Virus record (IMG/VR): IMGVR_UViG_3300042900_000588
Location: 1 to 20,927 of that record
Length of the DNA stretch: 20,927 nt
Direction: 5' to 3' (one strand)
Source: a virus
Positions 95 to 19,625 of this stretch are shown here, one piece after another. The notes under the pieces are model-generated. The model saw only the letters and a list, made by a program, of their open reading frames with translations, searched no databases and was not told where the DNA came from. A program made the position numbers and the translations under genes. Position 1 is the stretch's first letter. Each line of letters starts with the position of its first letter.

Positions 95-3000
95 TTATTT
101 TATTTGATTTTCAACAAATGTTACAGCCTTACCTCCTGGTAAAATTCTCTTAGTTTTCTGCCAAGCATCTTCCTCAAATCCTACAAGTGCTTTAAAAGCA
201 TTTAACATATCTTTAATCTTACCTAAAACAGCCGCAGGGTTACTTACCATGTACTTATCTTGTTCTAAATCAAAGATGAATAACACTTGACTTAATGCGC
301 TATCCCAATTTAATCCACCTTTTTTCTTATCATCATCGTCATCTCCTCCGTGTTTAAGAGCTAATAAAGCGCCGATAGTAGCCATTCCTTTTAAGTTTTG
401 AACAAAAGCAGGATTAGTTAAAGCTTTTTTAATATCACCTTTCTTTAAATCGGTAGCCATTTCTTTAATTCCTACTCTTAACATCTTAGTATAAGAACCT
501 TCTTTCTCTTGGCCATAAGCATTAAAGTATCTAGCAGAGAATCTTTCTTTGAACCAATCTGGCATCCATACTTTAAATTGGAATAAAGCCTTACCAAACT
601 CTCCGCGCATAATATTACGGCGGTCCTCGTCAGGATATTTACCTTGTATGTCTGTAACTCTATTCTTAATTTGAGTCATTTTAGACTTAATCTCATCTTC
701 AGTATATTTTCCGTTAGGTTTAACAGTTAATACATCGTTACCATACTTGTCTTTAGTAAACTCAAAGCTATCAAACTCTTCTTGACTAAGTAATCCTAAT
801 CCTAATGAACCTTGTATTTGATATTCACCTACTTGAGTACCCCACGTTGCTAACTTAGAAAATACACTACCTGCTTTAATTACAGGATGTGAGTCAAAGT
901 CTTGGTTTACTAAGTTATACTTCTTAATAATAGCTAAAGCATAATCATTAACAATACCTATTTCTTTTCTACTTCCCTTACCTCCAAATAATCTAGCATT
1001 ACCTCTAGCTAATGTTTCAGCATTCTCGGCTCTCCAATTATTGTAGTTACCTACAAATACGTTAATAGTATTAGCAGGAATATTAAACCACATAGTTGTA
1101 CTTGCTACTAATTTTCTTAAAGATTTAATAGCAGCGTCAATAACAGGATCGTTCACGTATGGTTCTTTGAAAATCTGTAAAGCTTTCCAATCGTTAATCC
1201 ACTTAGATACATTCTTTTTAGGAACATATCCCTCTTCCATATAGCCATTCTTATTAAGATACTCTATAGCCTCCACTAATGGCATAATCTTACTAATATG
1301 CTTAACGTGTGCTGACTCATCTATAAATTGATTCATAGCTTTATAGAAGTCTTTTGAGTAACCTCTATCCGCAGCTCTTGGCTTATCAAACTTACTTACT
1401 AATTGACCTTTCTCGTTTAATGAATACTCAGAATCTCCCTTTAATTCTAAAGGATTATCTTTCTCATCAATGTTTTGACCTTTCTTTAATTGGTATCTAG
1501 CTTTAATGTTAGCTACAAGTAAATTGTATAAAGCCTTTGCTATACTCTTAATGTTTTTCTTATCAACGCCAGCGATAATCTCTTTTTCTATTTCAGAATA
1601 AGACATTACTTTACCATTATGTAAGATTCTTACTCTACCTAAATTAGTTGCTCCGCCGCCTAAGTAATAACTAAAAGCAGGGATTAAACCTTCTGACTTA
1701 TAAGCCTCTCTAAAGTTCTTATCTACTCTAATAGCACCCATCTTAACATTCTCATAGTCATTTGAAGACATAGATTCTCTATATCCTGCAACTGTTTCTC
1801 TATGGAAGTCTAAGTAGTCAAGTTTAGCCTTAGATAATCCCTTAGCTTTTGCTTCGTCTATTGTTAAGTAATCACCTTTTTCGTTAATCATCCACTCGAA
1901 GTACTTACTTGAGTCAGAACTAAATCTATTGGCGGCTTTACCTACAATACCTAATCTCTTATTCTCTTCTTGAATTACTTTTAATCCAAGTTTAGCATGA
2001 GTATCTTTTAATGAATTAGCTTCAGTTATCTTGTCAATGATAGCTTTACCGTTTGCTAATGCTAAAGCTTGCATATCAGCGTTCTTTTCAGAGAATTGAG
2101 AGTAGTGTAATATCTTACTTTGCAATGGACTAATATCACTTGTTTTGCCTAATGCCTCTATGAATCCTTCTTTATCTTTATGTATCTCGTTTTGCTTAAC
2201 AGTAACTAGATGTCCAAGTCTTTGATATGCTCTTTCTTTTACAGATTTAGCAGCTCTATCATTAAATGCGAATAGCTTAGTAATTAAATCATTAAGTTCT
2301 TCAATATTGTATTCATCTAAGTTATCATCTTCTAAGATAGCTTGTACTGCTCTAAAGTCTTTTTTATACTTCAAGTATCCTAAGTATCTTTTAGCTTTTA
2401 TAGCAAACTCTTTACTAGCTTCTTTTAATAAGGCTCTTTGTTTCTCTAACTCAGCATCAGCAGCCTTAATTTCTTCATCAGTAACAGCTTCATCGGCGGC
2501 TATTGTAGCTAATTTTTCATCTTCTTTTACCTCTCTTAATTCTACAGTAGCTTGCTCGTATTTATCAAATTCTTTCTGAGCATCAAAGCCTTCTTCCATA
2601 GCATATTGATTATACTTTAGTGCTTGCGCCGCAAATGGTTTTTTCTTTTTTTTCTGTAATTGTTCTTTACCTGTAGCAACTCCTTTTAACTCTTTAGTTT
2701 TAACGCCTCCGATTATCTGTTTAGCAAGGCTCTTAGCTACGTTCTTATCTAAACCTAACTTCTGCTTTAACCAATCAAATATGTAGTCTAGGTAGGCTTT
2801 AAACTTACTTCTATCTTCAACCTTATCAAAAATATCAGCACCTTCTCTTCCGATTGCTTCTGCTAATACTTCTTTATCTAATTCTTGTTCACTTAATTCT
2901 TTGTAGCGTTCTTTTGTTTCTGCGTATAAAGGAGTTGTTCTTAATTGTTTTACTGCCGCTTGGATAATTTTATTATTATATCCCATAGCATCAATTAAGA

Positions 3001-6000
3001 TATGACCTGCCTCGTGGATAGGAGTATCTAATCCTGCATAGTTAGGATTAATGTATATGAATTTACCATCCGCAGATACTTTACCTGCAACTGTAGATTG
3101 CTCTCCAGTAAACTTACTAGCATCTTTAACTACTGTAATACCTTTAAAGTTAGCTTTTATTTTTTCAAATACTTTTTGAAAATCTCCTTTACGTTGAGAT
3201 ACTTTTTGGAATGGTTCAGCACCTTCTTCTCCTTTAATTATATCTTTTCCTTCTTCACTGTCCTGTTCGCTTTCCATTTCATCAAATGGACTTTTATTGC
3301 TTCCTTCCTCTCCTGCAATGTTTTGGATGATTTTGTTTGCTGATTCTTCGTTTCTGTCTTTTTCATTTGTGTTTTCTATTTTAGTTTCTAATTCAGTTAC
3401 CTCTTCTTCGTTTAAGTTATCTACAGATTCATCTATTACAACAACTTCATTCTCGATTAATCCTAAGCTCTCGCCATAAGCTACCATTTCAGCTATCTCC
3501 TTGTCGGTTTTGCCGTCATTAATTTCTCTCTCGTAAGCTTCAACAGCATAATCAATAGCTAAATCTCTACCTCCTTCTGTCAAAAAATCTTGTAAAAAAG
3601 AATTAGCTCTAGAGTTAAAGTTATCTTCATTAATATCATAAAATCCAGACTTCTCTTGATATTCTTGATACAATGATTCTAATGTATATCCATTTTTAAA
3701 ATCCTTCATCATTGAAGGCACATCAGGAATCTCTCCAACTATACTTTCTTTGAACTGACCCTTAGAACCTATAACCATAGCTATATACTGCTCAGGAGTA
3801 GTTGGAGTAGTATTTAAAGCATCTTTTCTTTTCTTAACAATAGCTTTTTCAGCATCAATAACAGATTGTTCTCTTTTTATAGGAGCTTTCTTTACTTGCT
3901 TGCCTTCGCTATCTAATAATTGTATTTTACCTTTAAGTAAAGGTTTAAGTGATCCGCCGAACTCCTCAACTTCTTTTTGAATTTCTTTTCTAAGATTAAC
4001 TCCAAATTCAGATTTCTTATTATTGCTACTTAGTTGATTATAACCTTTTATTTTTCTTCTAAGACTTGAACTATCTTTTTTAGTAGTAGGTTCTTTTTTA
4101 GTAGATTCCTTTTCTGAAATAACTTCTTTCTTATTAGTTTCTTGTTTGTTAATAATATCTAATGCTCTTTCAGGCTTCATGTTATCCACATTAACATTAC
4201 TATATCCCAAGTCAAGTAATCGTTGTCTTACTGCTTCTGTAATAGTTAATGGAACTGATGCTTTTTGTTCTTTTACTTTAGCTTTAGCTTCTTCTACTAT
4301 TTTACTTGTAGCTACTTTAGCTTTCTCTGTAGGAGTTGGTTTAGGTTTAGGTTTAGTAAGTCTTTCTATAACATCTCCGCCTTCAGGATTTTCGTTATAC
4401 ATCTGTTGCTCTAAGGTTTTAAGTAAATCCTTTTGCTCTGCTGTATATAATTCATTGCCTGCTTTATCTAAAGACTCTGCGCTACCTAATTTAGTTTCTT
4501 TAGCCCATGATAAAAACTTGCCTGTTCTAGCATCAAATACTTTTAAAGCTATTTTGCCAGGCTTGTAATTAGGTCCTTTATCTTCATTTAACGGATTGTT
4601 TAAGTCGACTGCGCGGATACCTACAGGTAATCCTTCTTCATTACCTTGTGTTCTTTCACTTCTAAAGTGTCTTCTAAAAATATCATCCCATCTTACCGTC
4701 TTATCATTCTCATCTTTAAATTCTTGCTTAGAAGAGGCTACACGTATTTTCTTACCATCTTCCATAGTAACTTCTATAACATCACCCTTCATTCTATCTC
4801 CTTTATCATTAACGTAAGAATATAATCTCTTAGTTAAGTTTCCGAATAGTTTTCTGTTAGGTTTATTATAAGCTTCCTTACGAATAACTCTATGTATAGT
4901 CCTCGCATCAGTAGCAGGATTATTAAATTCTTCTGTATCTATTTCACTGTAAGTTCTTTTATCGTCTTTCCAATAAGGTTTATTTTCAAGTTTAGGATAT
5001 GTAATTACTTTTTCTTGACCTAAACCTTCAATATCAGGCTGTCTTGTTTTAGCTTTTTCAACTTCCTTTTCTTGACTCAACTTTGAGTTAGTTTCTTCTA
5101 CCTTAATCTCCTTCTCTTTTTCTTTTTTGATACGCTCTTCTTCCTTTTTAGGAACTATTGGTTCACCTTTTATTTCTCCTTGGCGGATAATATCATTTAA
5201 TTCAGATTGAAGTTCTTTAGCTTGTTTCTGTTTACTCTCAACTTTTGCTCTAGCAATCGGATCAAGTTTAGAGATTTCATTCTCATTAGTTGGTATCTCA
5301 GTTTTAAGCCCTTGTATTTGGAATGATAATTCAAATGCCTTCTTTTCATTTTCAGGTTTTAAATTAACACCTTTTGTTTCTTCATTATATTTATTGTAAG
5401 CATCTATTTTAAAGTTAGCTTGCTCGTATTCTGATTGATTAATCTCTCCCCTCTCAAAAGCATTAGTCAGGTCAGTCTTTAATGCTGTAACCGCCCCTGG
5501 TCCTTCCTTAACTCTCTCGTAAGCATTAACAGATTGTTTGTCGTGGTTATTCTTTACTACTTGAGATACTAAAGACATCGGTGCGCCACTAACCCATCCT
5601 GTAGTAAAGCTATTAATATATTCTCCAAATGATTGAGCCGACAAAGCATCCGTTCCAAACTGACCTCTTTCATCATCAGTCATTTTATCCCATAAATTCT
5701 CTCCAGCCTTCTGCGCAAAAGTAGTAGCTACTTCGTTACTACCTTCTTCAAACATATCTTTTACAACTTGCTTGCTCTTAATCGCTCCCTTAGCTAATAA
5801 GCTATATTCAGATGCCATTTCTTTACCAAGTTGCTTAAACCCATTAGGTGTAATTAATCCTGTAGTTGCATCTCTTTCAACTTTCTTAATTATATTTTTA
5901 AATACTTCTTTCTCAGTACTTTTAAATGCGTTAGATAGAATCTTTCCTTCTAAGCCAAAAGCAGCATCAATAGAGGACTTAACTGTAGTTTCTAACATAG

Positions 6001-6982
6001 CATAAGCAGGAGCATCTCTACCTGTTAATCCAGCTTCGTGCGCTCTATCTAAAGCGTCTCCTGCATTAGTAAAAAAAGAACCTGTAAATAAAGCTCCTAA
6101 TTTTCCTGCTTTACCTAAAGTTAAAGCCTTATCAACCCCTTGATAACCATACTTCAAAGCCTTTGCTCCTTTAATAGCTGTTCCTCCAGTATATACGCCT
6201 AAGCCATATTCAGTAAGCGACTCCGCTACCGAGTTGAAAGTTCCCCATAATGCCTGTGGGCTAAAATCAAACCTATCTTTATCTAGCAAGTCACCAAATT
6301 TAGTAATGCCTTCCATGTTATAAACTGGTCTATCTAAATCAGCATCTTTCTCAAATTTTAATCCCTCTATTGCATTTTGCCCACCTCTTAAAGTTTCAGA
6401 TTCACTTCCTGTAGCTAATTCAACTCCCATTTGAGCGACATCTACAACTCCACCCATTAATCCAAATACTCCATTAGCTAAACTCTTACCTATATCTTGC
6501 CAAGCATTATCGTCTTTAGCAGATTCTTTAGTTCCCCAAATACTAGCAGCGTGGTATCCAACAGGTATTTTCTCTCCTTGCTCTAAAGCAATAGGTTTAT
6601 AATTACCACTATTTTCATCACGTTTCATGTAGTAATCAGGTGTTGTCCAACTATTATCTATTTGTTTTGCTTTTTTACCTTGTAGAGTCACTATAGCATC
6701 TGATAATTCCTCCTTAGAAGTCAAAGGATTTTTCATCATATTTTTCAATATATCCTTTTCATCATCACGCATAGTCCGAAAAGAATTTTCTTGGATAAAA
6801 TTTAATGTACTATCTATCTCTAAATCTTGAGGAGTTGTATATTTAGGTAAAACTACACTACTATCTCCTTCTCTTAATTGAGGAGAGTTATAGTTTAAAG
6901 CTTCTTCTGGACTAGGTAATCTACTAGCACTATTCGTTCCTAATATTTGATTAGGAGATGGTAATTTTGGATTTTCTGGCAT
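95..6982 (-). CDS. Giant internal virion (ejection/cargo) protein with embedded HExxH metallopeptidase domain
   Basis: A 2295-residue protein, probably packaged in the head and ejected with the DNA. The N-terminal ~480 residues contain Gly/Ala-rich hydrophobic stretches (about 168-192 and 255-305) that could insert into membranes. Residues 540-650 and 880-1060 are charged Lys/Glu linkers, with a Lys-Pro repeat near 877-884. Residues 655-880 look like a separate globular domain. A zincin-type site is clear: HEAGH at 1323-1327, with candidate third ligands E1371 or E1375 in EVLAEAIG. Residues 1455-1560 are probably helical or coiled coil. The last ~450 residues carry a pattern I associate with C-termini of large Bacteroidota-phage virion proteins: a DIQGKY...DRR block at 2111-2122, then FQFKVWMPDWFKERF at 2134-2148. 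It starts 2 bases after the 486-aa gene. I see no RNA-polymerase DxDxD signature. The peptidase could mature virion proteins or act in the host; which is unknown. A 'polyvalent' protein is the main alternative. Confidence 0.72.
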   Translation of the reverse strand: MPENPKLPSPNQILGTNSASRLPSPEEALNYNSPQLREGDSSVVLPKYTTPQDLEIDSTLNFIQENSFRTMRDDEKDILKNMMKNPLTSKEELSDAIVTLQGKKAKQIDNSWTTPDYYMKRDENSGNYKPIALEQGEKIPVGYHAASIWGTKESAKDDNAWQDIGKSLANGVFGLMGGVVDVAQMGVELATGSESETLRGGQNAIEGLKFEKDADLDRPVYNMEGITKFGDLLDKDRFDFSPQALWGTFNSVAESLTEYGLGVYTGGTAIKGAKALKYGYQGVDKALTLGKAGKLGALFTGSFFTNAGDALDRAHEAGLTGRDAPAYAMLETTVKSSIDAAFGLEGKILSNAFKSTEKEVFKNIIKKVERDATTGLITPNGFKQLGKEMASEYSLLAKGAIKSKQVVKDMFEEGSNEVATTFAQKAGENLWDKMTDDERGQFGTDALSAQSFGEYINSFTTGWVSGAPMSLVSQVVKNNHDKQSVNAYERVKEGPGAVTALKTDLTNAFERGEINQSEYEQANFKIDAYNKYNEETKGVNLKPENEKKAFELSFQIQGLKTEIPTNENEISKLDPIARAKVESKQKQAKELQSELNDIIRQGEIKGEPIVPKKEEERIKKEKEKEIKVEETNSKLSQEKEVEKAKTRQPDIEGLGQEKVITYPKLENKPYWKDDKRTYSEIDTEEFNNPATDARTIHRVIRKEAYNKPNRKLFGNLTKRLYSYVNDKGDRMKGDVIEVTMEDGKKIRVASSKQEFKDENDKTVRWDDIFRRHFRSERTQGNEEGLPVGIRAVDLNNPLNEDKGPNYKPGKIALKVFDARTGKFLSWAKETKLGSAESLDKAGNELYTAEQKDLLKTLEQQMYNENPEGGDVIERLTKPKPKPTPTEKAKVATSKIVEEAKAKVKEQKASVPLTITEAVRQRLLDLGYSNVNVDNMKPERALDIINKQETNKKEVISEKESTKKEPTTKKDSSSLRRKIKGYNQLSSNNKKSEFGVNLRKEIQKEVEEFGGSLKPLLKGKIQLLDSEGKQVKKAPIKREQSVIDAEKAIVKKRKDALNTTPTTPEQYIAMVIGSKGQFKESIVGEIPDVPSMMKDFKNGYTLESLYQEYQEKSGFYDINEDNFNSRANSFLQDFLTEGGRDLAIDYAVEAYEREINDGKTDKEIAEMVAYGESLGLIENEVVVIDESVDNLNEEEVTELETKIENTNEKDRNEESANKIIQNIAGEEGSNKSPFDEMESEQDSEEGKDIIKGEEGAEPFQKVSQRKGDFQKVFEKIKANFKGITVVKDASKFTGEQSTVAGKVSADGKFIYINPNYAGLDTPIHEAGHILIDAMGYNNKIIQAAVKQLRTTPLYAETKERYKELSEQELDKEVLAEAIGREGADIFDKVEDRSKFKAYLDYIFDWLKQKLGLDKNVAKSLAKQIIGGVKTKELKGVATGKEQLQKKKKKPFAAQALKYNQYAMEEGFDAQKEFDKYEQATVELREVKEDEKLATIAADEAVTDEEIKAADAELEKQRALLKEASKEFAIKAKRYLGYLKYKKDFRAVQAILEDDNLDEYNIEELNDLITKLFAFNDRAAKSVKERAYQRLGHLVTVKQNEIHKDKEGFIEALGKTSDISPLQSKILHYSQFSEKNADMQALALANGKAIIDKITEANSLKDTHAKLGLKVIQEENKRLGIVGKAANRFSSDSSKYFEWMINEKGDYLTIDEAKAKGLSKAKLDYLDFHRETVAGYRESMSSNDYENVKMGAIRVDKNFREAYKSEGLIPAFSYYLGGGATNLGRVRILHNGKVMSYSEIEKEIIAGVDKKNIKSIAKALYNLLVANIKARYQLKKGQNIDEKDNPLELKGDSEYSLNEKGQLVSKFDKPRAADRGYSKDFYKAMNQFIDESAHVKHISKIMPLVEAIEYLNKNGYMEEGYVPKKNVSKWINDWKALQIFKEPYVNDPVIDAAIKSLRKLVASTTMWFNIPANTINVFVGNYNNWRAENAETLARGNARLFGGKGSRKEIGIVNDYALAIIKKYNLVNQDFDSHPVIKAGSVFSKLATWGTQVGEYQIQGSLGLGLLSQEEFDSFEFTKDKYGNDVLTVKPNGKYTEDEIKSKMTQIKNRVTDIQGKYPDEDRRNIMRGEFGKALFQFKVWMPDWFKERFSARYFNAYGQEKEGSYTKMLRVGIKEMATDLKKGDIKKALTNPAFVQNLKGMATIGALLALKHGGDDDDDKKKGGLNWDSALSQVLFIFDLEQDKYMVSNPAAVLGKIKDMLNAFKALVGFEEDAWQKTKRILPGGKAVTFVENQIK

Positions 6983-13168: not shown

Positions 13169-13186
13169 AATTCAACTTTGAGTTAT
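13167..13186. repeat. 20-bp near-palindrome, copy B (candidate operator or weak terminator)
   Basis: Two 9-bp arms (13167-13175 and 13178-13186) with one mismatch flank a central CT. The 18-bp core TAATTCAACTTTGAGTTA is repeated exactly at 19674-19691 on the opposite strand. The site covers the TAA stop codon of the muzzle gene (13183-13185). On the minus strand the hairpin is followed by TTTTG, so weak termination is a second possible role. Confidence 0.5.
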
Positions 13187-16100
13187 CTTTTACTTACAAA
13201 GAATGTTTTTAACCATTGAGAAACCTTTTGTATATTTTTAGCAGTAGTAGGATTAGTTACATAATTTTTATGAATAAATTTCACTCTAACGTAATAATCA
13301 GTCAATCTTCCTCTTAATGAATCTAAAGCAACTGAAAAGAACCATGCTCCATCTATAAATCTATAATTTCTATTAGTTGTAGATATATTTAAATCACTTG
13401 CTGATTGATTCTCTGTATCAAAATAAACACTTGTAGAGTTTGGTCCAATAGTCTTTACCTGCATATTTTGTGGGGTTACCGCCATGTCAGTCTTGAAATT
13501 AACAACAACCTCTTGCTCAAAATCCCATACCTTACCATAGAATTTACATAAGTCAGCTCCAAAGTTTTGTAAATAAATCTCATTAGTTTTGTTAATAGCT
13601 AACCATGAATTACTACTTGGTGCTAATGGATTAGTTCCTGTTATTGCAGTCAATGTCCCTGGATATGAAGCTATGGTTACATCCTTAACACAAATATACT
13701 CTACATTGCCAACTAATACTGTATCTCCAATTACAAATGAAGTAGATGGCATATCTGTATTATAAGCCTTAGTATTTTTAGGATTATTAGCTGTTAATAC
13801 CAAGTCATTATGATTATGCCATATAGCAGGAGTACAATCTGTAAAAGCTACAAAAGCATTTAAAATATGATTGTATCCTAAAGTAAAATCTCTATTTACA
13901 AATGATTCATTACTCTCTCCTATAAAATCTCTCTTAGCGTATTTAAAAGTTAAATAAGTCATTTTGAATGTAGGGTCATAAACTCCCACTATACCATATC
14001 CCATTAAAGGAATTTCAGGTATATCTAAATTATTTGTATTATAAATATTTGAAAAACTATTAGGATAAAAAATATTACCTTCATTAAATTCATTATTAAA
14101 GAATACTTGCAATCCTTTAACCATAGACATTTCTTCAGGCTTACTTCCAATACCCATTACCATAAATGCTCTTCTACGCATATCAAACCACGCAAAACCA
14201 TATTCTGTTTCAGTTAGTCCGTGTTGGTGTTGATTTCCAAAGTTAGTATCTATATCATCATATCTATCAATAACTCCTGTCACACCTAATGCAGTAGCAT
14301 CTCCTAAAGCACTTCCTCCGACTAATTGACGTTCTAATATCGGCGTGTAACCTACTGAGTGGTCTTGCCAATAGAATAGTTTAGAATCTCTTGCTTTAAG
14401 ATTATTAATTTGTCCACGCTGTCCATCTAAATCTCTGTAATCAGGTATTCTAAATACACGGAATGAATCTATTAATTCACCAGGCGTTTTGTATTTACTC
14501 CATCTAATTCTGTAATCAAATTCTCCTGTAAACTTATAATTAAGTGGTAGTGACGGATATTTAATAAAATTACCATCGGTAGTATATGCTTTGTTATAAT
14601 TATAAGATTCTAATTGTGTCGTAGGAGACAAAGATGAATCAAACCATCCTATGCCTGTAGCTCCCGAAGAAGGATACATATTCTTATTTGATACCTTTTG
14701 CCCTCTTCTTAAATTATAGTTTACATTACCCTCACATGGAAACCATAAAGCATAAGACATAGCATTGTCGCTAGTTTCAAATGCTTCATCCCATAATCCA
14801 TATCCTAAATCAATAAGATTTGTAAAGCAATCTCCGCCGAACACCTCTATATCATTAAAAGTATATTTATTTTCTCCTGCGTAAATTCCTGAAGCAAACG
14901 TTCCGTTTAAAGTATCCGCTTTAACTTGTGTGTTAATAGGTTGAAAGTGACCACAAGACATATACAATGTATTAGCTATAGCTGATTCGCTTGCTCCTCC
15001 GTATTGATTAGCTGGGTCTGTATCTGTTATAAAATTAGCTAACATCTTGTTATAGTTAGACGTATTAGCAGTAGCGTTATAATCCGTTAAAGCATCAAAG
15101 TGATTAAATTGAGATTTAATTATTTGCTTTTTACACCCAACAGATAAAATATCAAAGCCTGGGCTAAAAGGTGTTACGCCACAAATAGAATCATAATTAA
15201 GTGTTACTTGAAATTCGTTTACGTTAGAATATCTATTTCTATAATCAACACTTGTTCCTAAAAAACCTCCAGCACCATTATTCTCATCAAAATTATAAAC
15301 AGCATTTCCATTCATTGATTGAAGAGGTAAAGTTCTTGGAGAACTAGCATCTTTTCCTGTACCAAAGATTCCAGCAGACATTTGAAATAATTTAGTAAAC
15401 ATTACTCTTTTTTGAGTATCTGTTTTTAATTGACTTCCATTTAACCAACAAGCTTCTTTTAAATTATCTCCAATTTTAACCGCAGAAGGAAAAGAATATC
15501 CAGTTTGTATATCAGGCGATAATACAGAGTAAATATAGTATCCATCTCCAACTTCATACATAGGTAAAATACTATAATCTGTTCTGCATATACCTAATGG
15601 CATAACAGAATTAAAACCAAGCAAATTACTATATACACTTTGCATTAATAATCCTTGCGTAATTACAATCGGGTCCCTCTCTGCTCTTACAATACTAAAT
15701 CCACTAATTTGATTCATTACTGATTCAGGTATATCTAATCCACTTATATTTATAGCTGATGGATTTAAAGAATAAGAATCTTGTATTAAAGCTCCTCCGC
15801 TTGGACGGTAATTGTCTTTTTTCATTAATCCTCCTTTATCAGGAATAGTATCAAAAGTGTAGTCAAAAGTTGTTGGGTCTCCTTTTATATATTTTACATA
15901 GAATGGATTGCCTTTTAAGTCAAAAAACAAAATTCCAAATCTATATTTTTCTCCACTCCAATATCCTTTATTATGAGATGCTACGGCAGGATCTTTGTAA
16001 TCCCAAAATCCCGTTGTTAATTGTATAGCATCTTCTCGTCTTTTACCATCGCTAATAGCTGTATATTTATTTTTAGTTGTACATGGTCTAACAGCTCCAT

Positions 16101-17619
16101 TTCCTGTAAATAAAATAGATGAAGGAACTGTTACAATAGCTCCAAATGAACCTGTTATTACATCTCCTGTAACGTACTGAACTCCTTTATAAGTAACTGT
16201 ATCAGTTGTGTTGTTTCCAAATGTAACTAACCATCTGCTATAAGGTAAAATTGAATTTGCTGGTGGATTTCCTGTTAATGGAGGACTTACATCAGCAGGA
16301 ACATTACAATTAGAACATAAATTCAAATCTCCATGAGATACTAAAGGATATTGAAACTGATTAATAGTTACTCCACTTAAATCTAAATCAAACTCTTCTC
16401 TTTCTGTTATGTTAGCGATAGTACTGTAATTCTTATTTGTATTTACTGTTTTACACTTTAAAATACTAGCAGGGAATAATGTTAAATCACTAATGGTTAC
16501 TGTTCCTAAATTAGACGCTCCAGTGTCAGTAATAGACATAGTTGCTCCTGTTACAGCTTCTTTGTTTGTGATAATAATTCTATAAGGTACATCCGCCACT
16601 TGTGTAAACTCAGCACAAGCTACCTCAATCGTATCAAAATCAGTATCAATATCTGTTATATTTAACTTTACAGACTTACCACTATTCTCAAGAGTTGTAG
16701 CGGTTCCATTACCTACAAAATCTCTATAAGCATTTCCTGTAATAAAGGTAGATGAATTATTCATTCCTACGTGAATAGGAGTGCTTGCGTAACTCCAAGA
16801 AGTTACCACGCCATCATAAGAATTAGATAGTCTATAGAAGTAAATATGACTTCCACAATACTTATCTCCTGTACCATATTCTTTAAACTCAATATTACCT
16901 AATAATCTACTTGGAGACCAATCTAATAAAGATAATGGATAGTATTCAATTACTAATGGCGCACCTACAGGTAAAGTATATGATGTACCAGCGCTTGCTT
17001 TAAATATATTTCCTGCCGTAAGTCCTACTCCATATTTAACTCCATTATAAGTAACTGCTCCTTGCAATACCATGTAGGTATTATTAGCTATTAAATCCGC
17101 TGCTCCTGTAAAATAAGTTGTAAAAATAGGATTAGCAATATCAAATACTTTAGGCTCATTAAAATTATCAGTCCAATATACTCTTTGATTATTTGTATTC
17201 TCTCTAAAAGAAAATCCTTCTATCTTATGTAATTTAGTAAAATTTAAGTCTGCATTATGGTAATATGGCACATAACTTCCAACGAAATCCATTTCACTTC
17301 TAGTAAATGAAATTACGCCTATTTCTCCATATCCTGTAGTAGACTCGCTATTTGTCGAGAACACTACTAACTTATCAATAAAAGAAACAAAACCTATTGG
17401 CATAGGCTCTACGTCTAATGTAGCTGTAGTTGTTAAATATCTTGGAGTTAATTTAAGTAACACCTTATTTCCTTTAGTCATCTCTACAGTGTAATGATTA
17501 CCGTCATAAGAAATAAGCATACCGTTTTTCATGTTTCGATATGTGCCGTCAGGCTGTAATATAAAAGAACTATCTTGATGAAGTCCTTTGTCAAATGTAT
17601 TAATAACTGAACCTGCCAT
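13183..17619 (-). CDS. crAss-like muzzle/nozzle (tail stabilisation) protein, 1478 aa
   Basis: The distal tail nozzle through which DNA leaves the short tail. Signatures I recognise from crAss-like phage proteins occur in order: an INTFDKGLHQD start (6-16), YWTDNFNEPKVFDI (148-161), a YFYRLS...G..TSWS block (260-276), GYWSGEKYRFGILFFD (552-567), ISGFSIVRAERD (638-649), NQYGGASESAIANTLYMSCG (about 872-891), and DIEVFGGDCF (924-933). Length and all-beta composition fit the muzzle family, related to the P22 gp10/T7 gp12 nozzles. Three stretches look inserted: about 165-228 and 455-512, both with a 'TYxGVxY...G' core, and about 1280-1347, with a GDTVLVGNVEYICV core resembling small carbohydrate-binding modules. 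The start overlaps the end of the 243-aa gene by 20 bases in another frame; the MAGSVINTFDKG start is conserved-looking and supports this ATG. Muzzle identity is from family motifs; host-binding modules are inference. Confidence 0.85.
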   Translation of the reverse strand: MAGSVINTFDKGLHQDSSFILQPDGTYRNMKNGMLISYDGNHYTVEMTKGNKVLLKLTPRYLTTTATLDVEPMPIGFVSFIDKLVVFSTNSESTTGYGEIGVISFTRSEMDFVGSYVPYYHNADLNFTKLHKIEGFSFRENTNNQRVYWTDNFNEPKVFDIANPIFTTYFTGAADLIANNTYMVLQGAVTYNGVKYGVGLTAGNIFKASAGTSYTLPVGAPLVIEYYPLSLLDWSPSRLLGNIEFKEYGTGDKYCGSHIYFYRLSNSYDGVVTSWSYASTPIHVGMNNSSTFITGNAYRDFVGNGTATTLENSGKSVKLNITDIDTDFDTIEVACAEFTQVADVPYRIIITNKEAVTGATMSITDTGASNLGTVTISDLTLFPASILKCKTVNTNKNYSTIANITEREEFDLDLSGVTINQFQYPLVSHGDLNLCSNCNVPADVSPPLTGNPPANSILPYSRWLVTFGNNTTDTVTYKGVQYVTGDVITGSFGAIVTVPSSILFTGNGAVRPCTTKNKYTAISDGKRREDAIQLTTGFWDYKDPAVASHNKGYWSGEKYRFGILFFDLKGNPFYVKYIKGDPTTFDYTFDTIPDKGGLMKKDNYRPSGGALIQDSYSLNPSAINISGLDIPESVMNQISGFSIVRAERDPIVITQGLLMQSVYSNLLGFNSVMPLGICRTDYSILPMYEVGDGYYIYSVLSPDIQTGYSFPSAVKIGDNLKEACWLNGSQLKTDTQKRVMFTKLFQMSAGIFGTGKDASSPRTLPLQSMNGNAVYNFDENNGAGGFLGTSVDYRNRYSNVNEFQVTLNYDSICGVTPFSPGFDILSVGCKKQIIKSQFNHFDALTDYNATANTSNYNKMLANFITDTDPANQYGGASESAIANTLYMSCGHFQPINTQVKADTLNGTFASGIYAGENKYTFNDIEVFGGDCFTNLIDLGYGLWDEAFETSDNAMSYALWFPCEGNVNYNLRRGQKVSNKNMYPSSGATGIGWFDSSLSPTTQLESYNYNKAYTTDGNFIKYPSLPLNYKFTGEFDYRIRWSKYKTPGELIDSFRVFRIPDYRDLDGQRGQINNLKARDSKLFYWQDHSVGYTPILERQLVGGSALGDATALGVTGVIDRYDDIDTNFGNQHQHGLTETEYGFAWFDMRRRAFMVMGIGSKPEEMSMVKGLQVFFNNEFNEGNIFYPNSFSNIYNTNNLDIPEIPLMGYGIVGVYDPTFKMTYLTFKYAKRDFIGESNESFVNRDFTLGYNHILNAFVAFTDCTPAIWHNHNDLVLTANNPKNTKAYNTDMPSTSFVIGDTVLVGNVEYICVKDVTIASYPGTLTAITGTNPLAPSSNSWLAINKTNEIYLQNFGADLCKFYGKVWDFEQEVVVNFKTDMAVTPQNMQVKTIGPNSTSVYFDTENQSASDLNISTTNRNYRFIDGAWFFSVALDSLRGRLTDYYVRVKFIHKNYVTNPTTAKNIQKVSQWLKTFFVSKR

Positions 17620-18331
17620 AAGTATTGTTTATATTCATTCCTACCCATAATCCACGACCTGAATAAGGGTCATGGTATAATCTTGCAATCTCTTCTCTAT
17701 CTGTTTCTGATAATTCTGCATCTAAAGCTCTTGAATGAGCGCATAGTCTATCCCATTGTGTATAGTGCCATTGCATCATTTTAGTATCTTTTCTTCTCAT
17801 ACACCAATTATACAATATGAATTGAGTAATAGCTTCTACGTGATTTTCTCCTATCTCCATAAATCCATCACAATCCACCTTATATCCTATGTATTGAACA
17901 GTTACTTTATCATTATGCAATTCTACATCAAATATCATTTTATTATTCTGAAAATGATATGGCACTATTCCGCATCCACTTGTAGTTTCAGATACTCCTG
18001 TATCAACTATTAAGAAAGTGTTATCCGCAGATAATGAAGCGTTAACTATTGGATTACTAAATGTTCTAGCAAATATACTTCCACAATTAACATCGTGACT
18101 TCCTAAGATAGCACCTTCTACCTTAATAGCATTATCAGGTAATTGTGCCGTGCATCCGCAAACATCAATAACTTTCCATTGTCTTTCGTATTGATAGTAA
18201 CTTCCTATTTCCTTTTCCGCTTGGTAAGCCCAAGTCATAAATAACGGTCTGTGATTAGCGTGGTCAACCGCCGCCAAATCCATCGCATTAATTATAGGAT
18301 TGTTTATTGATATTAGTTTGTTTATTGACAT
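17600..18331 (-). CDS. Adaptor-like ring/tail-hub protein, 243 aa
   Basis: A head-to-tail connector protein that probably forms a 12-mer ring below the portal. The N-terminal half is helical and contains MTWAYQAEKEIGSYYQYERQ (32-51), followed by WKVIDVCGCTAQLPDNAIKV (52-71). The latter is a strand-rich core that I know from crAss-like ring/tail proteins annotated as P22 gp4-like or tail-tubular. A second helical block, ENHVEAITQFILYNWCMRRK (162-181), closes the fold. The region between (about 80-150) is beta-rich. It contains about ten cysteines (C58, C60, C83, C120, C154, C177, C197 among them), many for a virion protein. Its first 10 bases overlap the IHF-like gene and its last 20 the muzzle gene, so translation is probably coupled. 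The exact ring position (upper or lower) cannot be told from sequence alone. Confidence 0.75.
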   Translation of the reverse strand: MSINKLISINNPIINAMDLAAVDHANHRPLFMTWAYQAEKEIGSYYQYERQWKVIDVCGCTAQLPDNAIKVEGAILGSHDVNCGSIFARTFSNPIVNASLSADNTFLIVDTGVSETTSGCGIVPYHFQNNKMIFDVELHNDKVTVQYIGYKVDCDGFMEIGENHVEAITQFILYNWCMRRKDTKMMQWHYTQWDRLCAHSRALDAELSETDREEIARLYHDPYSGRGLWVGMNINNTYGRFSY

Positions 18332-18783
18332 TTTAGCCTTGTTATTAATGTTCCTTTTTTAATTCCTTCTGTAACAGCATCTCTTAAATCTTGATGTGGT
18401 TTAAAAAATATCTGTTTACTCTTTTTGTATCTTTTAGTTTCTAGTACTATTTTGTAAATATACTTAGAACTACTTAAATTTAACTTCGCTTTTGTTACTC
18501 GCCCTCCAACATACGTTAATCCTTTTTCTAGTAACGACATCATTCTTTTACTATCCGTTGTCTTTGTTGCTTTAACCCAAATTTTAGTTTGACTATCTAA
18601 GTTTATAATCGCTCCTAGTTTTAAGTTATTCAATATCTCTTCTTCTATGTAACTACTCCAAATATCGTTAATATCCTTTGTAGTTATCTTTTGTTTAAAT
18701 CTTCTTTTAAAGTCCCTTTTAATCAATCCATGTACTCTTGGAGTTGACCACTCTCCTAACTTCTTATCTACTAATTTCTTCAT
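18322..18783 (-). CDS. IHF-like ring protein of crAss-like phages, 153 aa
   Basis: A small basic protein of the family annotated in crAss-like phages as 'IHF subunit' and sited in the tail operon, where it is likely a structural ring component rather than a free DNA-bending protein. Visible features are a helical N-terminus (LIKRDFKRRFKQKITTKDIN, 20-39), IWSSYIEEEILNNLKLGAII (41-60), the strand KIWVKAT (67-73), KRMMSLLEKGLTYVGGRV (79-96) and SKYIYKIVLETKRYKKSKQI (105-124) leading to FFKPH. The DNA-binding beta-arm layout of HU/IHF is only loosely visible. It overlaps the 281-aa gene by 4 bases (ATGA) and the 243-aa gene by 10, which places it firmly in the operon. Family membership is by recognition of these motifs; the structural role comes from gene order and known crAss-like virions. 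Confidence 0.72.
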   Translation of the reverse strand: MKKLVDKKLGEWSTPRVHGLIKRDFKRRFKQKITTKDINDIWSSYIEEEILNNLKLGAIINLDSQTKIWVKATKTTDSKRMMSLLEKGLTYVGGRVTKAKLNLSSSKYIYKIVLETKRYKKSKQIFFKPHQDLRDAVTEGIKKGTLITRLKCQ

Positions 18784-19625
18784 TTAGTTACTACATCATC
18801 CGCCGAATCATTTAAAACATCCACCACTTGCTGTTTCTCTATTTGAAACTCAGTTGTTAAGATAGATATTACAATTTGTCTAGCTAAGTGTGACGATACA
18901 GGATATGGGTCATTCTCAGTCATCTCTACTTCATAGTTAGTATAGAATACTTGTGAGTTTCCGCTAGCTGTAAAAGTAGCTGTAGCCGTTCCTGTGAACG
19001 TATCATTAGGTAAATAATTAACTCCATTGTAAACTACTAATCCTGTTGTTCCTTTTACTGTATATGAATATCCACTCTTAATTCCACCGCTAATAACAGG
19101 TAATGTTTTCTTAATCATTAATCCTTCTGTGGTAGTAGGTATTCCAAAAAATCTTAGGTTTTGTACAATTTTATTAATATAAATAGTAGTACCAAATCTT
19201 TGATAATAATGAAACATTGACCTTACGTGTTCTTTAGGTATCATTCTCCACGTTTCAATAGGATAGAAAGTGTAAGTAGTCTTTCCGCAAGCAGATATAA
19301 CCCTTAACCCTAAATCTAAGTTTCCGTCTCCTAAGTAAGTTAAATTGATTACTTCGGGTATTTCAGCCTTCATAATATCACAAGCGCAAAAGTCTACGTT
19401 TGGATCATCAGAGAAATTTACCTTAGTTAACGAGTGAATACCAAAGTCCACTAACCAATTTTGGTCAATAACCTTAGTAATGTTGTATTCTTTAAGAATT
19501 TCAGAAACTCTTGCTTGCTCTACTTTATATCCAACCCAATCTTCATCAATCCTAGATTCATCAGTGCGAGAAAATCTTTCAGCTAAAATTAAAATATCGT
19601 CTATGATTTGTTTTTTAGTTGGCAT
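18780..19625 (-). CDS. Tail ring/hub protein with an inserted beta-module, 281 aa
   Basis: The first gene of the tail operon and probably a ring or tail-hub subunit. The N-terminal helices (ILILAERFSRTDESRIDEDW, 11-30, then VGYKVEQARVSEILKEYNI, 31-49) resemble a conserved opening of Bacteroidota-phage tail/ring proteins. The C-terminal helices after residue 238 (DPYPVSSHLARQIVISILTT and onward) end with a D-LND-ADD tail typical of the same family. Between them, residues about 182-230 form a Thr/Tyr-rich beta-module (TGLVVYNGVNYLPNDTFTGT) that looks inserted and resembles modules in the muzzle protein. A -7 box lies 19 bases before the start. The gene ends in an ATGA overlap with the IHF-like gene. 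Assignment to a particular ring of the crAss001 tail is not possible by eye. Confidence 0.68.
   Translation of the reverse strand: MPTKKQIIDDILILAERFSRTDESRIDEDWVGYKVEQARVSEILKEYNITKVIDQNWLVDFGIHSLTKVNFSDDPNVDFCACDIMKAEIPEVINLTYLGDGNLDLGLRVISACGKTTYTFYPIETWRMIPKEHVRSMFHYYQRFGTTIYINKIVQNLRFFGIPTTTEGLMIKKTLPVISGGIKSGYSYTVKGTTGLVVYNGVNYLPNDTFTGTATATFTASGNSQVFYTNYEVEMTENDPYPVSSHLARQIVISILTTEFQIEKQQVVDVLNDSADDVVTK

Follow-up and report, generated by a model that had tools for sequence, protein, structure and literature searches.

One small beta module at four insertion sites in the ring and muzzle proteins of a clade of crAss-like phages

The crAss-like phages are very abundant, and in tailed phages the Ig-like decoration domains provide an example of one class of small beta domain that is found on different virion proteins. 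Compared with these domains, the module described here measures about 50 residues and, apart from weak matches to cupin and cyclic-nucleotide-binding (CNB) beta-rolls, has no fold match. In the lactococcal 936 siphophages, BppA-type carbohydrate-binding modules (CBMs) are present on Dit, the major tail protein and neck proteins, and cell binding has been measured (available portion of PMC6669499). On the basis of the same portion, the present locus resembles the 936 phages in that several virion proteins of a single phage group have accessory modules in or on them, but the 936 CBMs have a known fold and a patchy occurrence in siphophages, whereas the present module is unnamed and fills four fixed sites in a crAss-like barrel and muzzle. 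The module-bearing proteins have homologues in the same gene order in phicrAss001 (gp40, gp34/gp35 and gp44; PMC10172136); crAss001 has none of the four inserts. The accessible part of the phicrAss001 paper notes that muzzle length varies because the IG2 region has taken up insertions, regards the muzzle as likely to contact the host without naming a receptor, and makes no mention of a module shared between ring and muzzle (PMC10172136). No published description of a four-site module was found in a literature that included few subscription papers.

The window, that is, the whole stretch of DNA analysed, is a virus record of 20,927 bases. Its minus strand encodes the ring-2 protein (R2, 281 aa; 18780..19625), a 153-aa protein (18322..18783), ring 1 (17600..18331), the muzzle (1478 aa; 13183..17619) and then further large proteins, an order that matches gp40, gp42, gp43 and gp44 of crAss001. 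The muzzle, host of two module copies, passed the curated cut-off of 27 for crAss_MUZ (PF25731) with 315.6 bits (E 1.2e-93), and R2, host of one copy, passed the same value for CrAss_Ring_2 (PF25702) with 34 bits (E 3e-8). AlphaFold2 models were obtained for R2 (mean pLDDT 68, 12 sequences) and for a muzzle fragment spanning residues 60-640 (mean pLDDT 79, 21 sequences); the former matched crAss001 R2 (7qog_C; Z 11.6, rmsd 5.6, 190 residues aligned) and the latter matched 7qok_A (Z 13.6, 356 residues, chain 62-439). The ring-1 protein is free of the module and is named by gene order alone, from its position as gp43 in crAss001, its 17 bits against CrAss_Ring_1 (PF24228) being below the cut-off of 27. 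The 153-aa protein takes the place of gp42 (IHF-like) by synteny only. At window positions 95-6982 is encoded a 2295-aa protein with no Pfam match, which contains a HEAGH stretch resembling the zinc-protease HExxH motif, and which is possibly a virion cargo protein. In two related records the muzzle frame is in two pieces (L113, 6968-10051 and 10161-11060; L067, 8977-11241 and 11300-12916), either because the frame shifts, because an element intervenes or because the assembly is at fault.

The module is a beta module of about 45-60 residues, with the pattern Y-x-V ... Y-N-G-x-x-Y ... F-x-G in three aligned stretches. Profile matches and predicted strands place one copy at residues ~181-233 of the 281-aa ring-2 protein (18927..19085, minus strand) and two in the muzzle. 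Of the latter, M1 occupies residues ~175-230 (16930..17097, minus strand), directly after the second propeller blade and ahead of the region that aligns with crAss001 IG1, and M2 occupies residues ~456-512 (16084..16254, minus strand), within the region that aligns with crAss001 IG2. To control for chance resemblance, the R2 stretch was made into a profile and slid along 71 windows of the muzzle alignment; the top scores were those of M2 (42.2, probability 96%) and M1 (28.2, probability 80%), and the best muzzle window clear of both scored 15.0. An HMM that had only six R2 modules as its input found the muzzle copies in relatives, with best E-values of 7e-5 for M2 and 7e-4 for M1, and weakly found a third protein (E 0.04), while a whole-muzzle profile matched R2 proteins at E 2e-5. 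Site-against-site comparison with hhalign, in a set of 57 non-redundant copies whose choice with the same iterated HMM biases the scores toward similarity, gave 54.5 for R2-M1, 54.0 for R2-M2, 49.4 for R2-ring 3, 36.8 for M1-M2, 32.8 for M1-ring 3 and 16.7 for M2-ring 3. Since column-shuffled targets, 40 for each pair, reached at best 12.3-16.2, the M2-ring 3 pair is unconvincing by itself and the other five are convincing. A chance likeness of a short beta-hairpin motif is ruled out by the sliding-window and shuffled-column controls, M2-ring 3 alone being not significant.

The third protein lies outside the window. In relatives, a ring-3 protein of 256-273 aa, encoded at or near the position of gp34/gp35, carries the module at residues ~172-232. 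Full-length profile similarity and gene position place this protein in the ring-3/4 lineage. Without its module it matched the crAss ring-3/4 set with a probability of 98.5% across 203 columns, and in L037 and L038 its gene comes after capsid-like and gp33-like genes, as in crAss001; at the curated cut-off of CrAss_Ring_3_4 (PF25710), none of the 15 module records matched. The modules of R2 and ring 3 match each other with a probability of 97%, and the two proteins without their modules with a probability of 0.25%. The likeness is thus confined to the module, which would have reached both genes by copying from one to another. Ring paralogy is ruled out as the source because nothing is detectable once the module is removed. 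The spacing between ring 3 and R2 is ~9 kb in the near relatives of the window and ~1.2 kb in L037 and L038, and proteins encoded between the two genes (L032, 2555-4144; L038, 6847-7914) have no Pfam match.

Alignment with relatives indicates that the module has been inserted. Gaps are present at M1 and M2 in crAss001, phi14:2 and cr50_1, and at the R2 module in crAss001 and phi14:2; in an alignment of 15 R2 proteins (eight with the module, seven without), all seven from outside the clade are gapped at this position. The module is present in 12/12 R2 proteins examined from the module clade, which are 272-292 aa long, and absent from 13/13 outside it (crAss001, phi14:2 and 11 further lineages), which are 214-242 aa long, in counts that leave out L079 and L082, where no R2 was identified, and L073, where the record starts too near the muzzle. 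In R2 the insert comes after the beta-sandwich has ended and before the YP motif, which itself precedes the C-terminal helices. Outside the clade, the R2 loop at this site holds two or more cysteines in 11 of the 13 proteins and one in the other two, those of crAss001 gp40 (L040) being residues 170 and 178. Among the 12 module-bearing R2 proteins, 11 have no cysteine in the loop, and the remaining one (L065) has a single cysteine inside the module; in ring 3 the cysteine trend is weaker. That the module is an integral part of the conserved core is ruled out by its absence outside the clade. In the tail of one uncultured clade, four insertion sites, one each in ring 3 and R2 and two in the muzzle, thus hold one homologous small beta module, and it is almost certain that the copies are homologous and that the module was inserted. 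The preliminary description had reported the same module in a ring protein and twice in the muzzle, which is borne out by profile scores far above the controls, and had proposed that it interrupts conserved families in virion proteins of one operon, of which there are in fact three, with four sites. The question it raised, whether orthologues lack the module, is answered in the affirmative for lineages outside the clade and in the negative for orthologues within it, which never lack it.

The distribution of the module was assessed with a 43-row profile run across 25 whole records, of which those from the module clade are incomplete (9-80 kb). The profile matched 15 records, with 54 matches in total, and gave none in the other 10, which include crAss001, phi14:2, Fpv1 and cr50_1. 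Four copies were found in 10 records, three in four and two in one, and no record had more than four; wherever four copies can be seen (10/10), the number is exactly four. In G004, G006 and G007 the end of the record cuts the missing site, and in G011 and G013 less than 3.1 kb lies ahead of R2, such that ring 3 may lie beyond the record. Once the module columns had been taken out of the alignment, a tree of 34 muzzles put the 18 module bearers together on one side of a single branch (SH-aLRT 99); this tree comes from a rapid search, it has long branches (Fpv1 3.23), and its labels were taken from the same module search. Because the tree has no outgroup root, a gain of the module is what we infer, and not what the tree itself demonstrates. 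Within the module clade, R2 proteins differ by up to ~75%. A query with M1 added two lineages (L108; L111-L114), again with R2, M1 and M2 copies. Pattern scans of viral_contigs led to confirmation of 6/105 and 19/95 stretches; among the confirmed stretches, those on records already in the set fall at this clade's R2 or M1 sites, and the five on new records are likewise M1 sites in muzzles. Pattern scans of genome_contigs found nothing, tblastn of one module copy against 50,697 phage records returned only matches at E 7-9, and searches for wider occurrence in PHROGs and Pfam turned up nothing beyond weak, scattered matches. Among the 25 records, the Pfam profiles THA and THB match crAss001 alone (L040 gp38 and gp39) and do not match phi14:2, of the same viral family, and loss of the tail hub is thus uninformative as a correlate of the module.

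Close relatives differ in how far the copies have diverged. Between the window and L016, muzzle identity averages 86% but falls to 48% at M1 and 60% at M2, whereas the R2 copy is 96% identical against an R2 mean of 97%. Against L019, however, the R2 copy scores 0.72 compared with a mean of 0.86, in the bottom 2% of windows along the comparison, and M1 often exceeds the muzzle mean in remote pairs. The contrast of variable muzzle copies with a conserved R2 copy therefore holds for most close pairs, but not for all. At the DNA level, identity between the window and L024 is 98% on either flank of M1 (muzzle residues 141-160 and 221-260) but 47-67% over residues 161-220 (47-51% at 181-220), a stretch in which L024 and L016 are 82-95% identical. 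The DNA of M2 behaves alike, with 40-75% at residues 441-500 against 93-97%. This mosaic suggests exchange of M1 and M2 alleles between related phages. Further hypervariable patches of the muzzle, equal to M1 and M2 in variability, lie at residues 601-620 and in parts of 1321-1440, the former with ~50% DNA identity between the window and L024 inside stretches of 87-97%, so that variability does not single out the module. The idea that the module shuffles between proteins is not supported, in that the sites are fixed and filled all-or-none across the clade and only the muzzle M1 and M2 alleles swap among close relatives.

With regard to fold, structure prediction of R2 and the muzzle, proposed when the three stretches were described, gives short strands in a similar order at all of them in the AlphaFold2 models. 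Strands are predicted at residues 187-191, 197-199, 202-204, 209-211, 218-220 and 225-228 of the R2 copy, where the block at residues 181-230 has a pLDDT of 76-87; at 181-186, 188-191, 194-197, 205-207 and 222-225 of the M1 copy; and at 462-467, 475-477, 480-482, 487-489 and 502-504 of the M2 copy. In a fold search with the R2 model, 22 of the 50 PDB matches listed cover residues ~165-240 only (Z 3.0-3.8), and nearly all of these are, judging by their titles, cupin or CNB domains. When the whole R2 model was searched against BFVD, the matches were ring-like proteins from other phages. A Pfam search with 43 copies brought up no cupin or CNB family at E <= 1, and no cupin or CNB chain was found in a PDB sequence search at E <= 10. 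A cupin/CNB-like beta-roll may thus be taken as a lead for the module and not as an assignment.

The role of the module is open to several readings, of which an exposed contact module, host-facing on the muzzle and docking or stabilising on the rings, is tentatively favoured, with a probability somewhat short of even. The module would have been acquired, copied between tail genes and fixed in the ancestor of the clade. The distal muzzle copies would then face the host surface and be diversified by allele exchange among related phages, and the ring copies, at the loop that carries cysteines in relatives outside the clade, would provide conserved contacts down the length of the barrel, to dock fibres or to stabilise the rings, with 12 copies per ring if the stoichiometry of crAss001 holds. 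In the accessible part of the crAss001 paper, insertions into the muzzle's IG2 region are proposed to affect the surface, and display of the module on the tail surface would fit this remark (PMC10172136). Nevertheless, in the same part Bayfield et al. favour the crass domain as the part that contacts the cell (PMC10172136), and M1 and M2 lie upstream of that domain, which counts against a host-facing role. The module could instead act as a structural staple that replaced the cysteine loop of the rings and joins rings, hub or muzzle domains non-covalently, with the muzzle copies doing the same job between propeller and Ig domains and without any host contact. This is a doubtful but not negligible explanation, and it draws on the occupation by the R2 module of a loop that carries cysteines outside the clade, on the disulfides that in crAss001 join the tail hub to the rings and R1 to R2 (accessible part of PMC10172136), and on the all-or-none occurrence, which suits a structural part. 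The accessible text gives those disulfides without residue numbers, and the loop is no more than a candidate for forming them; the cysteine pattern is weaker in ring 3, and the fast change of M1 and M2 among close relatives is ill-suited to a buried part.

It is unlikely that the module is a uniform glycan-binding decoration at all four sites, comparable to the BppA-type CBMs. The 936 phages offer a precedent with measured cell binding, but in the portion of that paper available the CBMs are patchy (PMC6669499), whereas in the present clade every one of the four sites bears a module. In Pfam, CBM_5_12 (PF02839) is matched by three of the 43 module copies tried, at E 0.14 or worse, but these matches are not significant: one copy reached 12.3 bits against a cut-off of 26.2, and no carbohydrate-binding family passes its cut-off. 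Furthermore, the conserved Y, V, Y and F/G residues would read as a beta core and not as an exposed sugar site. Least probable, and very unlikely, is that the copies arose by in-frame duplication in a neutral burst and were fixed through drift, with no function of their own. Many copies do differ at more than half of their residues (15-60% identity to the first row), as such a burst would allow, but all copies have been kept across a clade whose R2 proteins are so divergent, and the core residues are conserved in both muzzle copies and R2.

The exposed contact module thus remains the preferred reading of function. Taken more broadly, the module may represent an undescribed family of cupin-like tail modules, installed jointly in ring 3, R2 and twice in the muzzle of one clade, replacing the cysteine loop of the ring and with the muzzle copies swapped as allelic cassettes, which would amount to a coordinated remodelling of the whole tail by one domain; this composite proposal is speculative and, as a whole, less likely than not. 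The module clade, with its exchanged muzzle alleles, offers defined small domains for binding tests, and this one lineage shows that an extra module can fit several layers of a podovirus-like tail.
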